This document shows, one piece after another, positions 12,430 through 17,596 of a DNA stretch of 55,761 nucleotides. The notes beneath the pieces are model-generated. The model was given only the letters and a program-made list of their open reading frames with translations, had not been told where the DNA came from and made no database searches. The position numbers were made by a program, and so were the translations under genes. Source of the DNA: an uncultured Actinomycetes bacterium (lineage in GTDB: Bacteria > Actinomycetota > Thermoleophilia > RBG-16-64-13). Each line of letters begins with the position of its first letter. The first letter of the stretch is position 1. The stretch is taken from contig CAIQPS010000061.1 of the NCBI GenBank assembly GCA_903873715.1, positions 1 through 55,761 on the forward strand, given 5' to 3'.

Positions 12430-12628
12430 GCGTCCCCTCCTGGTCCGTGACGCGGCCGCCGCTACCGGCCTGCCCTGCGCCGCCTCAAGCCGCCCCCCGA
12501 TTCTACCGATATTACCGGGCAGATACGCGAGTCGAGGAACGCCGATCTCCATCCAAGGGTGGAGAGAGCGCAGGGCCGCGTGCTTGTAACGTCTTCACCG
12601 TGTGGGCCCGAGCCCCCGGAGGTACGTG

Positions 12629-14290
12629 GTGATCGGAATAGCGAAGCGGAGTGTCAAACTGGGTCTGTGGGTGGTGGGCGCCGTCGCGCTCGCCCTGGCA
12701 GTGTGCGCCGCCGGCCCGGTGAGCGCCGCTCGCGCCGAGACCGGCTACCAGGTGCGGCTGGTCGAGACCCCGGTCATCAACACCTCGCCTTCGTTCATCT
12801 CTCCGTCGGGCGGCTATCTGGCGTGGACCGGCACCTACAAGGGCGTCTCCAAGATGTACCTGTTCCAGTCGCTCACCGGTGAGAACTCCTACATCAACCC
12901 CGGCCCGGCCGGTTCGTACTACAACCCCGCCATGGAGGGCAAGTACGTCGTCTACCAGGGCTCCACCACCGGCGGCTACAGCGATATCTACCTGTTCACC
13001 CGGGGCCAGAGCCGCACGCAGATCATCAGCTCCGCAGGCATCGACGGTGACCAGGACGACTGGAACCCGCGCATACAGAACGGCCGGGTGGTCTGGCAGA
13101 AGACCACGGCGGACGGCACCGGCGCCGGCATCTACCTGTACGACATCACGGCCCGCACCAGGCAGTGCGTCCTCCCCGGCACCGAATACCGCGACCCCGA
13201 CATCTTCGGCGACTACATCGTGTGCGTCAAAGACGTCGCTTCGGACAAGGGTCCCAATGCCAGCGAGATAGTGCTGTATCAGATCTCCACGGCCCAGTCC
13301 AAGACCATCGCCGGCAGCGGCCTGGCCGAGAGCTTCGAGCACCCGCGCATCGACGGCGACCATGTGGTGTGGTCCCACGGAGCGCTGTGGTCGGCCGAAG
13401 AGGCCAAGTCGTGGGCGGCCTCGTACCAGGTCGAGGTGTACACCATCTCCTCCGGCACCACCAAGGCCATCACCGACAACCAGGCCGGCAACCTGAACCC
13501 GGCCGTCGGCGGCGACCTCGTGGTCTGGCAGACGTGGACCCCGTCGACCATCAAGGGCTACAGCATCGCCGGCGCCACCACGACCGACATCTCGCCCCAC
13601 GGCGACACGTTCCGCGAGCCCGACGTCGACGGCACCCGGGTCGCGTGGTGGGGCGGCAGAGGCCTCTACTACGCAGTCCCGCAGAGCGAAGCCACCATGT
13701 TCCCCGACGTGCCCACCGGACACCACTACCTGGCCGCCATCGAAGCCACGGCGGAGAAGGGCATCATGTCCGGCTACGGCGCCCGGACGGACGGGCCGGA
13801 CGCCGACTTCGGGCCGGACGACTGGATCATCCGGCAGCAGTTCGCGTTCATGATCTGCAAGACGATGGGCTACAAGCCCGCCGAGGAAGACACCTACGAC
13901 TTCTCCGACGTGCCCTCCATCGTCCACCTCGAAGGGTCGCTGTACCCCTACCACTACGTGGCTGCAGCCGTTCTCAAAGGCTGGGCCGTCACGCACTCGG
14001 GCACCTTCCACCCGCTCTGGCGGGAGTACACGAAGGAGGCTTTGGCGTCCATCCTGGCGGCCGCCGGTGACGCCCTCCTCGATCCGCCCGATACGTTCGT
14101 GGCCACCCTCACCGACGAGGACGTCGTCGTGGCCGAGAACCTGCGCATCGCCGAATACAACGGCCTGCTCGACAACATCGTGGGCCCGGACGGGACCCTG
14201 GCCTCCTGGAACGTCCAGGAACCCGTCACTCGGGGCCAGGCCGCCCAGCTACTCTGGAACCTGTACCTGAAGCTGCACCCCGCCACCTAG
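12629..14290 (+). CDS. Secreted beta-propeller-like protein with C-terminal SLH-type repeats
   Basis: A 553-residue protein. The second of two adjacent GTG codons (12629) is chosen because GGAGG sits 6 nt upstream; the other is at 12626. A signal peptide (residues 1-37) ends in an Ala-rich cleavage site. Residues about 45-355 hold repeats of the type 'GDYIVCVKD', 'GDHVVWSHG', 'GDLVVWQTW' and 'GTRVAWWGG', as in TolB/YncE-like beta propellers. Residues about 365-550 hold three S-layer-homology-like repeats (MFPDVPTGHHYLAAIEATAEKGIMSGYG, DFSDVPSIVH, PVTRGQAAQLLWNL). SLH repeats bind secondary cell-wall polymers. Probably a cell-wall-associated protein of unknown ligand. Confidence 0.8.
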   Translation: MIGIAKRSVKLGLWVVGAVALALAVCAAGPVSAARAETGYQVRLVETPVINTSPSFISPSGGYLAWTGTYKGVSKMYLFQSLTGENSYINPGPAGSYYNPAMEGKYVVYQGSTTGGYSDIYLFTRGQSRTQIISSAGIDGDQDDWNPRIQNGRVVWQKTTADGTGAGIYLYDITARTRQCVLPGTEYRDPDIFGDYIVCVKDVASDKGPNASEIVLYQISTAQSKTIAGSGLAESFEHPRIDGDHVVWSHGALWSAEEAKSWAASYQVEVYTISSGTTKAITDNQAGNLNPAVGGDLVVWQTWTPSTIKGYSIAGATTTDISPHGDTFREPDVDGTRVAWWGGRGLYYAVPQSEATMFPDVPTGHHYLAAIEATAEKGIMSGYGARTDGPDADFGPDDWIIRQQFAFMICKTMGYKPAEEDTYDFSDVPSIVHLEGSLYPYHYVAAAVLKGWAVTHSGTFHPLWREYTKEALASILAAAGDALLDPPDTFVATLTDEDVVVAENLRIAEYNGLLDNIVGPDGTLASWNVQEPVTRGQAAQLLWNLYLKLHPAT

Positions 14291-14381: not shown

Positions 14382-14394
14382 TATGCTGCAGACA
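14382..14394 (+). promoter_or_regulatory. Candidate leaderless -10 element
   Basis: TATGCT at 14382-14387 lies exactly 6 nt before the ATG, and no ribosome binding site is present. This matches the TANNNT-N6-7-ATG arrangement of leaderless actinobacterial transcripts. No clear -35 is seen. Confidence 0.45.
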
Positions 14395-14966
14395 TGTCGA
14401 CCCAGACCACACATCCCGGCGCCGCTCCTCCCTTCGCAGTCCGCCCCACCGGCACGGCCGACCAGGCTTGGGTCACCGAGATGGTCCTCGGCTGGGGAGC
14501 CGACTTCATAATCACCAGGGGCCGCAAGGTCCGCCCTCAGGAGTTGCCCGCCTTCTGCGCCGTCGCGGCCGGCGGCGAACGTCTCGGACTGGCCACGTAC
14601 GAGATCGCCGGTGCCGACTGCGAGCTGGTGACACTCGACGCCCTGCAGCAGTGGCAGGGGGTCGGCACGGCACTGCTGGAGGCGGTGAGGGGTGCGGCGG
14701 CCGCCGCAGGCTGCCGCCGCCTCTGGCTCGTCACCACCAACGACAACCTTGACGCGCTTCGTTTCTACCAGCGCCGGGGTATGCACCTGGTGACCGTGCA
14801 CCACGGTCTGCGGGAGACCGCCGCCAGGCTGAAACCCCAGATCCCGCTCACCGGGTGTTTCGGCATCCCCATCGTCGACGAGATCGAGTTGGAGATGGAT
14901 CTGGACCCCGCCCCGCCCGCACGTCCACCCGCCGCCGGAGGGGCAGCAGAGGAGGCACGGAGATGA
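14394..14966 (+). CDS. GNAT-family N-acetyltransferase
   Basis: A 190-residue protein. The acetyl-CoA-binding region is seen as LDALQQWQGVGTALLEAVRGAA (about residues 81-102; Q/G-x-G-x-G/A motif) and NDNLDALRFYQRRGM (about 118-132). The acceptor is unknown. There is no Shine-Dalgarno site; instead TATGCT lies 6 nt before the ATG, which fits a leaderless transcript. GCATATTC occurs twice at 14361-14381 and may be part of an operator. The stop overlaps the start of the GcvT-SHMT gene by ATGA, so the two are co-translated, which suggests a role near glycine/one-carbon metabolism. Confidence 0.85.
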   Translation: MSTQTTHPGAAPPFAVRPTGTADQAWVTEMVLGWGADFIITRGRKVRPQELPAFCAVAAGGERLGLATYEIAGADCELVTLDALQQWQGVGTALLEAVRGAAAAAGCRRLWLVTTNDNLDALRFYQRRGMHLVTVHHGLRETAARLKPQIPLTGCFGIPIVDEIELEMDLDPAPPARPPAAGGAAEEARR

Positions 14967-17596
14967 CCGCCCTCAGGAAGACCCCGCTCCATGGCAGCCA
15001 CGTCGCCCTCGGCGCCAAGATGGTCGACTTCGCAGGCTGGGACATGCCTCTGATGTATCCCACCGGAGTGGTGGCCGAACACCTGGCCACGAGGCGGACC
15101 GCCGGCCTGTTCGACATCTCCCACATGGGGCGCTTCACAGTGGCGGCCGGTGACGGCCTCGCCCGGCTGCAGAAGGTGCTCAGCAACAACGCGGCCGCCC
15201 TCGAACCGGGCCAGGCTCAGTACACCTTCATCCCCACCGAGACGGGCGGCGCCGTCGACGACGCCTACCTCTACCGCTTCTCAGAAGGCGAATACCTGCT
15301 CGTCGTGAACGCCGCCAACACGGCCAAGGACACCACCCACCTCGAGACGCACGGCGTCCCTCTCACCGACCGCACGGCCGGCCTGGCGATGCTCTCGCTG
15401 CAAGGGCCGGCCTCCCGTGACATCGTCGCCGGCCTCATCACCGCCGGCGCGCTCCCCGAGCCGCGGCGCAACGAACTGTCCACAGTGGCGATCGGGCACG
15501 CCCAGGTGCTTCTGGCCCGCACCGGCTACACGGGCGAGGCGCTCGGTTTCGAGCTGTTCCTGCCAGCGGAGCACGCCGGCGCCGTCTGGGAGTTGCTCGT
15601 CGAAAAAGGCGCTGTTCCCTGTGGCCTCGGCGCCCGGGACACCCTCCGGCTGGAAGCGGGACTGCCCCTGTACGGCCACGAGTTGGGCACCGACCCGATG
15701 GGGAACGAGATCCCGGTGTTCTCCTCCCCTCTCGCTCAGTTCGCCGTCAGCTTCTCCCCCGTCAAGGGCGACTACGTGGGCCGTGAGGCCCTGCTGCACC
15801 AGCAGGAAGCCTTTCACCGCATCGTGGACGGCGACCTCTCCGACATCGCGGCGCTGCCCCGCCTCACCCGTCCGGTGGCGGTCACCGGCCGCGGCGTGGC
15901 CCGCGCCGGGGCACCGGTCTTCCACACGGATGGGAGGCCCGCGGGCTGGGTCACCAGCGGCACCATGGTCCCCTACTGGAAGCCCACAGGCGACAAGCTG
16001 GCATCGCGCCCCAGCGACGAGTACGGTCTGCGTTCCATCTGCCTCGCGCTCCTGGACGCCGACCTACACGACGGAGACGACGTGCACATCGACATCCGCG
16101 GCAGCCTCACGCCGGCTGCGGTCGTGCGCTACCACCTGAGGAGCGACGCGCCGCCCTTCGCCCGGCCCATCGTCCACCGCCCGCCGGAAGAAGGCGCCGC
16201 GGCCCCGGCGCCGGACGCCCGCAAGGCCGCCGGCGATCTGGTGCGCCTCGCCGCCGAGAACCACCACTGGCGGCAGCGGGATTGCATCAACCTGATCCCG
16301 TCGGAGATGACTCCGTCCCCGCTGGTACGGCTGCTGTCGGCGAGCGACCCGGCCTTCCGCTACGCCGAACACAGGAAGCTGGAAGCCCTCGACGAGGCCG
16401 ACATCTTCTACTACCAGGGCACCGGCTTCATCGACCAGGTCGAGCAGGCCCTGGAGCGCGAGATGCGGCGGTTCCTGGGCGCGGCCGAGGTCGAGACCCG
16501 GGTGATAAGCGGCCAGATGGCCAACACCGCCCTGTTCTCGGCGCTCGTGGACCACCGGAACCGCTGGAACAGGAAAGGGGAGCCCCAGCGCCTGCGGATG
16601 GTCATGAACAACCACATCGGCAAAGGCGGCCACCTGAGCGCCCAGCCCATGGGCGCTCTCAAGGACTTCGTCGCCACCGACCCCCGGACCGACCGGCCGG
16701 CGGTGGTCAACTTCCCGGTCCAGCCCGGCGATCCCTACCGCATGGACGTCGCGGGCGCACTCGAACTCATCGAACGCCACCGCCCGGAGCTGGTGATCCT
16801 CGGGAAGAGCATGGTGCTCTACCGGGAACCGGTCGCGGATATCCGCCGTTTCGTGGACGAGGCGGGCATCGACGCGGTCGTCATGTACGACATGGCCCAC
16901 GTCCTCGGCCTTGCCGGCCGGTACTTCCAGCAACCGTTCGCGGAAGGTGCCGACTTCGTGACCGGCTCGACCCACAAGACCTTCTTCGGCACTCAGCGTG
17001 GCGTCGTCGCCACCCGCTTCGGCCGGCGGGACGACGAGTACGAACTGTGGGAGGCGGTCCAGCGGCGCACCTTCCCGGGCTCGGTGTCGAACCACCACCT
17101 GGGCACCATGCTCGGTCTGCTGGCCGCCGCCTACGAGATGAACCACTTCAAGGACGAGTATCAGCCCGCCGTGATAGCCAATGCCAAGGCGTTCGCGCAG
17201 GCGCTGGCAGCCGCCGGTCTGCGCGTGGCCGGCGGCCCGGCCGCCGGGTACACCGAGACCCACCAGGTCATCGTGGAGGTCGGATACGGACAGGGCCCGA
17301 TGCTGGCGGCCCGTCTGGAGGAGAACGACATCATCTGCAACTACCAGGCGGCCCCCGACGAGGAGGGCTTCACCGCAGCCGGTGCGCTGCGCCTGGGAGT
17401 GGCCGAGATGACCCGGTTCGGCATGGGTGCCGAAGGCTTCGCGGCGCTCGCGGGAATCATCGCGGGCGTCATCCTCGATGACCGGCGGTCAGAGGCCGAG
17501 GTCCGCGACCTCCGGCGTGCCCACCAGACCCTGCACTATTGCTTCGGCGAGGCGGACTTCCCCGAAGCGTTCCGGGCGCTGCGCGACACCATCTGA
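14963..17596 (+). CDS. Fused aminomethyltransferase (GcvT) - serine hydroxymethyltransferase
   Basis: An 877-residue fusion. Residues 1-405 are a glycine-cleavage T protein: MVDFAGWDMPLMYP, FDISHMG, VVNAANTAKD with the expected catalytic Asp, and LEAGLPLYGHE. After a Pro/Ala linker, residues about 415-877 are a PLP enzyme of the SHMT family, with NLIPSEMTPS, SGQMANTA and GSTHKTFFGTQRG, in which Lys672 is the Schiff-base lysine. T protein makes 5,10-methylene-THF and ammonia from the aminomethyl group of glycine; SHMT uses methylene-THF and glycine to give serine. The fusion could channel methylene-THF between the sites, making serine from glycine or the reverse. The SHMT half is divergent from the standard GlyA, and an alternative hydroxymethyl acceptor is possible. 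Start set by the ATGA overlap with the GNAT gene. Confidence 0.85.
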   Translation: MTALRKTPLHGSHVALGAKMVDFAGWDMPLMYPTGVVAEHLATRRTAGLFDISHMGRFTVAAGDGLARLQKVLSNNAAALEPGQAQYTFIPTETGGAVDDAYLYRFSEGEYLLVVNAANTAKDTTHLETHGVPLTDRTAGLAMLSLQGPASRDIVAGLITAGALPEPRRNELSTVAIGHAQVLLARTGYTGEALGFELFLPAEHAGAVWELLVEKGAVPCGLGARDTLRLEAGLPLYGHELGTDPMGNEIPVFSSPLAQFAVSFSPVKGDYVGREALLHQQEAFHRIVDGDLSDIAALPRLTRPVAVTGRGVARAGAPVFHTDGRPAGWVTSGTMVPYWKPTGDKLASRPSDEYGLRSICLALLDADLHDGDDVHIDIRGSLTPAAVVRYHLRSDAPPFARPIVHRPPEEGAAAPAPDARKAAGDLVRLAAENHHWRQRDCINLIPSEMTPSPLVRLLSASDPAFRYAEHRKLEALDEADIFYYQGTGFIDQVEQALEREMRRFLGAAEVETRVISGQMANTALFSALVDHRNRWNRKGEPQRLRMVMNNHIGKGGHLSAQPMGALKDFVATDPRTDRPAVVNFPVQPGDPYRMDVAGALELIERHRPELVILGKSMVLYREPVADIRRFVDEAGIDAVVMYDMAHVLGLAGRYFQQPFAEGADFVTGSTHKTFFGTQRGVVATRFGRRDDEYELWEAVQRRTFPGSVSNHHLGTMLGLLAAAYEMNHFKDEYQPAVIANAKAFAQALAAAGLRVAGGPAAGYTETHQVIVEVGYGQGPMLAARLEENDIICNYQAAPDEEGFTAAGALRLGVAEMTRFGMGAEGFAALAGIIAGVILDDRRSEAEVRDLRRAHQTLHYCFGEADFPEAFRALRDTI

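Follow-up and report, generated by a model that had tools for sequence, protein, structure and literature searches.

A widespread bacterial fusion of the glycine cleavage T-protein with an archaeal-type serine hydroxymethyltransferase

We analyzed a 55,761-nt stretch of DNA from an uncultured Actinomycetes bacterium (hereafter the window), which covers the whole of contig C61 of the host assembly. One of its genes joins the T-protein of the glycine cleavage system (GcvT) to a serine hydroxymethyltransferase (SHMT) on a single chain. We confirmed that this gene is a real and intact GcvT-SHMT fusion, and we found that it represents an architecture that is widespread and occurs in many bacterial groups, most of them uncultured. 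Its sequence makes it quite probable that the protein is bifunctional and serves a normal glycine cleavage system as T-protein and SHMT at once, the 5,10-methylene-tetrahydrofolate (methylene-THF) made by one half being passed to the serine side.

In the proposed mechanism, the T half would take the aminomethyl group from lipoyl-H-protein and release ammonia and methylene-THF, and the SHMT half would use this methylene-THF to turn a second glycine into serine; both steps could also run in reverse. With the P, H and L proteins, the net reaction would interconvert two glycines with serine, CO2 and NH3. We infer that both activities are present, that tetrahydrofolate (THF) is the carrier and that the advantage of the fusion is a local hand-over of methylene-THF, possibly by channelling between the halves, which would limit its decay to formaldehyde.

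The gene encodes 877 residues in an intact open reading frame, and both families were recognized above their Pfam cut-offs: GCV_T (PF01571) at residues 9-244 (250.7 bits), GCV_T_C (PF08669) at residues 357-389 (33 bits) and SHMT (PF00464) at residues 432-833 (106.1 bits). The T half also exceeded the cut-offs of two further models, NCBIfam GcvT (309.8 bits; cut-off 300) and TIGR00528 (250.4 bits; cut-off 235.85). The AlphaFold2 model, built from a 70-row alignment, has a mean pLDDT of 90.6 and a pTM of 0.88, and a Foldseek search of the PDB with it placed the T-proteins 1wos, 1woo and 1yx2 on top, the best SHMT being that of Methanocaldococcus jannaschii (4uqv). These results bear out the first-pass annotation, which had described two consecutive steps of glycine/serine interconversion on one 877-residue chain. 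It had also called the pyridoxal 5'-phosphate (PLP) lysine 672 and the T-protein motifs intact, and K672 and D100 are indeed invariant in all 70 aligned fusions.

We searched for relatives in one genome per species (84,980 species), which yielded 113, and kept the best 80; all counts of loci rest on these. Matches spanned both halves, or parts of them, at all 80 loci (L085 starts at a contig end, inside the T half), and this recurrence of the two-domain chain rules out a sequencing artefact or a chance joining. The 70-row alignment consists of the window protein and 69 relatives, whose identity to it ranges from 53 to 71%. The 11 relatives left out of it comprise nine that are incomplete, have a broken frame or lack a clean start, one that is nearly complete (L058) and one of full length with an extra insertion (L069). 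Record titles assign the fusion to Actinobacteria/Thermoleophilia, Desulfobacterales and other Deltaproteobacteria, Planctomycetes, Oscillospiraceae/Clostridia, Calditrichales, Abyssobacteria, Nitrospiria, Firestonebacteria, Gammaproteobacteria and others. The majority are titled as metagenome-assembled genomes (MAGs); Desulforhopalus singaporensis DSM 12130 is a named strain. Among 296 genomes of the host's phylum, the host included, a model of the SHMT half gave four matches at E≤1e-40, three in frames of 876-947 residues and one partial in a frame of 576 residues. The module is therefore patchy, and no standalone copy of the fusion-type SHMT half was met in this sample at that threshold.

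The gcv genes beside the fusion in relatives and its rank as the best, and often the only, GcvT of the genome make it very probable that the T half acts as T-protein in an ordinary glycine cleavage system. By alignment and numbering, D100 corresponds to the catalytic D97 of the E. coli T-protein (the variant D97N is named in the title of PDB entry 3a8k). Genes for GcvH and/or GcvP lie near the fusion at 29 of the 80 loci; among the 58 loci whose flanks total 8 kb or more, they do so at 20. The gcvH gene is at most 600 bp away at 21 loci. In two genomes (G071 and G115), gcvH lies no more than 50 bp downstream of the fusion match and shares its strand. The dihydrolipoamide dehydrogenase Lpd is encoded at 13 loci and the lipoylation proteins LipB, LipA and LplA at 8, 7 and 4, respectively, with at least one of these three at 13 loci, all of them among the 29 with gcvH or gcvP; a gene for a phosphoserine-phosphatase-like ACT/HAD protein stands beside the fusion at 6 loci. 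Neighbours were clustered over the 80 loci and the window, and only clusters present in at least 4 loci were considered; seven families were checked by Pfam with one representative each, the remaining cluster names being our reading, and the cluster named GcvP merges PA and PB, of which the Pfam scan covered a PB. The first-pass annotation had entertained a different aminomethyl donor. The position of the relatives among gcvH, gcvPA, gcvPB, lpd and lipA/B speaks against this idea.

In each of the 21 genomes checked, the fusion ranked first among the GcvT matches; it exceeded the NCBI cut-off in 20 of them, falling just below it in G296 (297 of 300 bits). Thirteen of these genomes had no other GcvT match at E≤1e-20. 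We also surveyed the host together with 40 relatives (41 genomes). A standalone-type GcvT is present in twenty (385-418 bits, in frames of 355-564 residues and one of 818), ten have a match of 291-320 bits in a frame of 902-1114 residues (fusion-type; the SHMT half was checked in two of these ten, the host G000 and G328, which shares the coordinates of G296), three are truncated or unclear and eight have no GcvT match. Two GcvTs above the cut-off never occurred in the same genome (0 of 41). This pattern fits a replacement of GcvT by the fusion. In the counts over 29 fusion-type genomes given below, eight (G324, G329, G330, G331, G332, G333, G334 and G336) were called by frame length.

Compared with known GcvTs (for example 1wos, 1yx2 and 3a8i), the fusion shares PF01571, PF08669, the catalytic aspartate, a score above the NCBI GcvT cut-off and, in relatives, the gcv neighbourhood. 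It differs by the C-terminal SHMT and by its position in the tree: in a quick phylogeny of the T half, the window protein and 26 other fusions form a single clade (SH-aLRT 100) apart from 11 standalone GcvTs. One Oscillospiraceae MAG carries, directly after its fusion, a duplicate of the T half that lacks SHMT (L074:12856-14085, + strand), which is nested in the fusion clade. This natural split paralogue is useful for asking why the fusion is kept.

The host itself encodes gcvPA and gcvPB on contig C128. The first-pass annotation had noted that no H or P gene is nearby and that the T half may act on a distant cleavage system. The former holds for contig C61, where whole-genome searches gave no GDC-P or GCV_H match, and fails for the 29 relatives with such genes beside the fusion; the latter agrees with the location of gcvPA and gcvPB. 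Contig C128 also encodes the CdhC subunit of carbon monoxide dehydrogenase/acetyl-CoA synthase (CODH/ACS), and formate-tetrahydrofolate ligase (FTHFS) is encoded on contig C145. A canonical GlyA (518.7 bits) is encoded on contig C29. Apart from the fusion, the host assembly has no second GcvT above the NCBI cut-off. The first-pass annotation had set a standard glyA and gcvT elsewhere in the genome, combined with degenerate active sites in the fusion, as the finding that would overturn it; the canonical glyA exists, but there is no separate GcvT at cut-off level and the sites are not degenerate.

The catalytic residues of the SHMT half are invariant. Each of the 70 aligned fusions keeps the equivalents of E. 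coli GlyA S35, E57, Y65, H126, S175, D200, H203, K229 and R363, and on this basis we rejected a degenerate domain. The sequence features by which we recognized the SHMT fold and catalytic site are present, namely PF00464, the PLP lysine and the equivalents of His126, Asp200, His203, Arg363, Glu57 and Tyr65. We take Glu57 to have a role in folate-dependent catalysis. The SHMT half also carries three inserts (7, 12 and 8 residues), and the equivalent of R235 is a glutamine in the fusions, as it is in the M. jannaschii SHMT, in the standalone SHMT L142 described below and in the L-threonine transaldolase 7k34.

Sequence comparison places the SHMT half in the archaeal, M. jannaschii-like SHMT lineage. 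Its top PDB sequence match is the M. jannaschii enzyme (4bhd/4uqv; 175 bits), to which it is 33% identical, and the two share the motifs YQG and GSTHKTFFG in addition to the glutamine at R235. They differ in that the fusion has the three inserts, a glutamine in place of N347 and the fused GcvT, and in that 26 of the 29 checked fusion hosts lack the marker of tetrahydromethanopterin (H4MPT). With canonical bacterial GlyA, the fusion has the PF00464 fold and the PLP and substrate residues in common, but identity to the host GlyA is only 26%. In an SHMT tree of 51 rows, the fusions form one clade and the canonical GlyAs another (both 100/100), M. jannaschii and then L142 branching between them; the tree is unrooted and holds one archaeal sequence, and when it is rooted on the GlyA side M. 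jannaschii and L142 join the fusion side. We omitted 7k34 from this careful tree, as it has a long branch and its position was unstable in a first tree. The first-pass annotation had called the SHMT half divergent, and the tree places it outside the GlyA clade.

A standalone SHMT of 436 residues in the fusion-bearing bacterium UASB270 (L142:421-1731, - strand) is 39% identical to the SHMT half. It is itself of the archaeal type, with 47% identity to M. jannaschii over 373 columns, and UASB270 therefore has three SHMT types: this standalone enzyme, the fusion and a canonical GlyA.

This lineage raises the possibility that H4MPT or a different modified pterin takes the place of THF in the SHMT half and perhaps also in the T half. 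GlyA versions specific to THF or to H4MPT exist, according to PMC9012536, which cites the M. jannaschii SHMT, the closest characterized relative of the fused domain, as H4MPT-dependent through the title of a reference. The replacement of N347 by glutamine in 70 of 70 fusions could be read in the same direction; however, M. jannaschii keeps the asparagine, so the change is no mark of H4MPT. The H4MPT marker beta-RFAP synthase was found in only 3 of 29 fusion-type genomes, the host not among them (and in 3 of 6 controls with a standalone GcvT), and FTHFS in 29 of 29 (split by a stop in G315). The T half, moreover, is an ordinary GcvT. On these marker counts we rejected H4MPT dependence as a first choice and regard it as very unlikely; THF is likely the carrier of the SHMT half. 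FTHFS also occurs in all six controls, and so fails to separate fusion from non-fusion genomes and shows only that THF chemistry is present. The first-pass annotation had suggested another acceptor for the SHMT half, which remains weakly supported: the archaeal lineage favours it, and the retention of Glu57 and the absence of the H4MPT marker from the host do not.

Next to a genuine T-protein, the SHMT half could instead be a transaldolase or an aldolase whose substrates are other aldehydes together with glycine or threonine. L-threonine and fluorothreonine transaldolases (7k34, TIGR04506) share the SHMT fold and some motifs with the fusion. The fluorothreonine transaldolase model TIGR04506 matched within the SHMT half at 139.8 bits, 7k34 scored about as well as the canonical SHMT 6ymd in the PDB search (93.9 and 94.1), and the glutamine at R235 is common to the fusions, M. 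jannaschii SHMT and 7k34. The model score is, however, far under the TIGR04506 cut-off of 650, the closest solved structure is an SHMT and the neighbours in relatives are glycine cleavage and lipoylation genes. In addition, the equivalents of Glu57 and Tyr65 are kept in 70 of 70 fusions but are Cys and Phe in 7k34, which was aligned from pieces with its middle missing and is the sole transaldolase checked at these positions. We therefore consider this alternative unlikely. Still less probable is a non-catalytic SHMT half, a scaffold or folate-storage domain beside an active T half. The presence of a canonical GlyA in 17 of 20 fusion genomes and the duplicated T half of L074, which lacks SHMT and lies inside the fusion clade, would accord with such a role. 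Yet the PLP residues examined are invariant (70 of 70), and the mean column identity of the SHMT half is 73% over 26 halves and 67% over the 70 full fusions (different row sets), unlike a decaying domain. Three of the 20 genomes, moreover, have no full-length canonical GlyA, although their assemblies are possibly incomplete.

Several observations weigh against a bifunctional T-protein/SHMT in a normal glycine cleavage system, which we nonetheless prefer. The separate GlyA in those 17 of 20 genomes means that the fused SHMT is dispensable for bulk serine/glycine exchange. The same observation suggests a division of labour in which the fused SHMT would serve glycine cleavage specifically and GlyA the free pool; the three other genomes have no GlyA (G297), a fragment (G310) and a partial match of 28 bits (G314). 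The SHMT half scored 239.5 bits against the NCBIfam SHMT model, below its cut-off of 335. The equivalent of N347, a residue that we assume to have a role at the pterin, is Gln in every aligned fusion, whereas all 22 canonical GlyAs compared, M. jannaschii and L142 have Asn. Neither gcvH nor gcvP was seen around the fusion at 51 of the 80 loci, many of which lie on short contigs. Weaker GcvT-like proteins (98-232 bits) were found in the other 8 of the 21 genomes checked, and some of their frames (380-436 residues) could be T-proteins. Finally, GcvH exceeded its cut-off in 24 of 25 genomes, and the exception is the host, where no match in the assembly passed the Pfam cut-off (best 21 bits). That match sits just downstream of a gene read as a 2-oxoacid dehydrogenase E1-beta, and it is therefore probably the lipoyl domain of an E2. 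A gcvH of 155 bits in G296, a close relative, makes it likely that the host gene was lost to an assembly gap. As it stands, the host assembly combines gcvPA, gcvPB and a T-protein with no GcvH at cut-off level, through such a gap or through an unusual H-protein.

A link of the fusion to the Wood-Ljungdahl pathway as such was rejected, as CdhC was found in 16 of the 29 fusion-type genomes and in 6 of the 6 standalone-GcvT controls. These counts point clearly to neither glycine breakdown nor reductive synthesis of glycine and serine as the direction of the pathway.

Each half forms a single clade, and the simplest reading of these trees is that the fusion formed once and was later transferred widely. 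Some vertical descent is suggested as well, because the host groups beside other Actinobacteria records. A more specific scenario is possible, and we propose it tentatively: an ancient single fusion would have placed an archaeal SHMT of methanopterin lineage onto a folate T-protein, with the pterin site retuned for THF (N347Q and the three inserts). The resulting "glycine-to-serine synthase" would pass methylene-THF directly between two active sites. It would have moved by horizontal transfer into many phyla and taken the place of GcvT there, the housekeeping GlyA being kept for the free folate pool.

The domains themselves are known, and we found no description of the joined GcvT-SHMT arrangement in open-licence literature searched by title and start of abstract, although it may be noted elsewhere. 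The portions available to us of PMC12827605, PMC10327494, PMC9686372 and PMC7547702 do not mention it. Genomes without any other GcvT match (13 of the 21 checked) can hold their T-protein inside the fusion, and these data suggest an archaeal-type SHMT at work in folate-using bacteria. To our knowledge, the direct hand-over of methylene-THF from the glycine cleavage system to SHMT is an open question in one-carbon metabolism. Here, a hand-over normally left to two enzymes seems hard-wired in one chain, and a natural and widely kept fusion makes it directly testable. It also bears on the engineering of the reductive glycine pathway, as the decay of methylene-THF in the glycine cleavage system yields formaldehyde (PMC7227101).

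The features of the fusion gene and of the gene preceding it are collected in Table 1.

Table 1. Positions in the window of the fusion gene, its parts and key codons, and the adjacent acetyltransferase gene
Feature	Positions	Strand	Basis or remark
GNAT acetyltransferase, 190 aa	14394..14966	+	Pfam PF00583, 40.5 bits
Shine-Dalgarno-like GGAGG	14951..14955	+	Sequence; 7 nt upstream of the fusion ATG
GcvT-SHMT fusion gene	14963..17596	+	877 aa plus stop, no internal stop
T-protein half, aa 1-403	14963..16171	+	PF01571/PF08669, NCBIfam GcvT, Foldseek, tree
Codon of D100 (E. coli T-protein D97)	15260..15262	+	Invariant 70/70
Linker, about aa 404-424	16172..16234	+	Low conservation in alignments
SHMT half, aa 425-877, archaeal-lineage SHMT fold (predicted)	16235..17593	+	PF00464, PDB match, Foldseek, tree
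Codon of E469 (E. coli SHMT E57)	16367..16369	+	Glu 70/70; Cys in L-threonine transaldolase 7k34
Codon of K672, PLP lysine (E. coli K229)	16976..16978	+	Invariant 70/70
Codon of Q795 (E. coli N347), fusion-specific change	17345..17347	+	Gln 70/70
Codon of R810 (E. coli R363)	17390..17392	+	Invariant 70/70

The GNAT gene is on the same strand as the fusion and its stop overlaps the fusion start by 4 bp (ATGA, 14963-14966), an arrangement that could indicate a functional pair. The first-pass annotation had proposed looking for this pair elsewhere, and the search went against it. A homologue was present in 2 of the 80 relatives (L009, 62% identity; L008, 41% with an internal deletion), both times separated from the fusion by a gene on the other strand, and none was found in the surrounding DNA of the other 78 at E≤1e-3. 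As the pairing is not conserved, we rejected the partnership: it is highly improbable that the overlap marks a functional pair, and the GNAT gene is probably a local juxtaposition. Further upstream, an S-layer homology domain protein (12602-14290, + strand), presumably a TolB-SLH protein, is also the upstream neighbour in the four closest Actinobacteria loci (L008-L011), across which it is more stable than the GNAT gene.

In 11 loci, mostly of the Desulfobacula type (L045, L046, L049, L053, L055, L056, L060, L066, L071, L073 and L086), a conserved protein of about 200 residues is encoded on the minus strand, convergent after the fusion and at most about 200 bp from it in 10 of the 11; we assume that it belongs to DUF3786. 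The host also encodes two other GCV_T proteins, on contigs C139 (L090:8001-9365) and C168 (L091:7629-9017, - strand). They are closest to syringate/vanillate O-demethylase models, with best scores of 184 and 210 bits, far under the cut-offs of 580-800, and they could possibly be THF-dependent demethylases in a genome with CODH/ACS and FTHFS.

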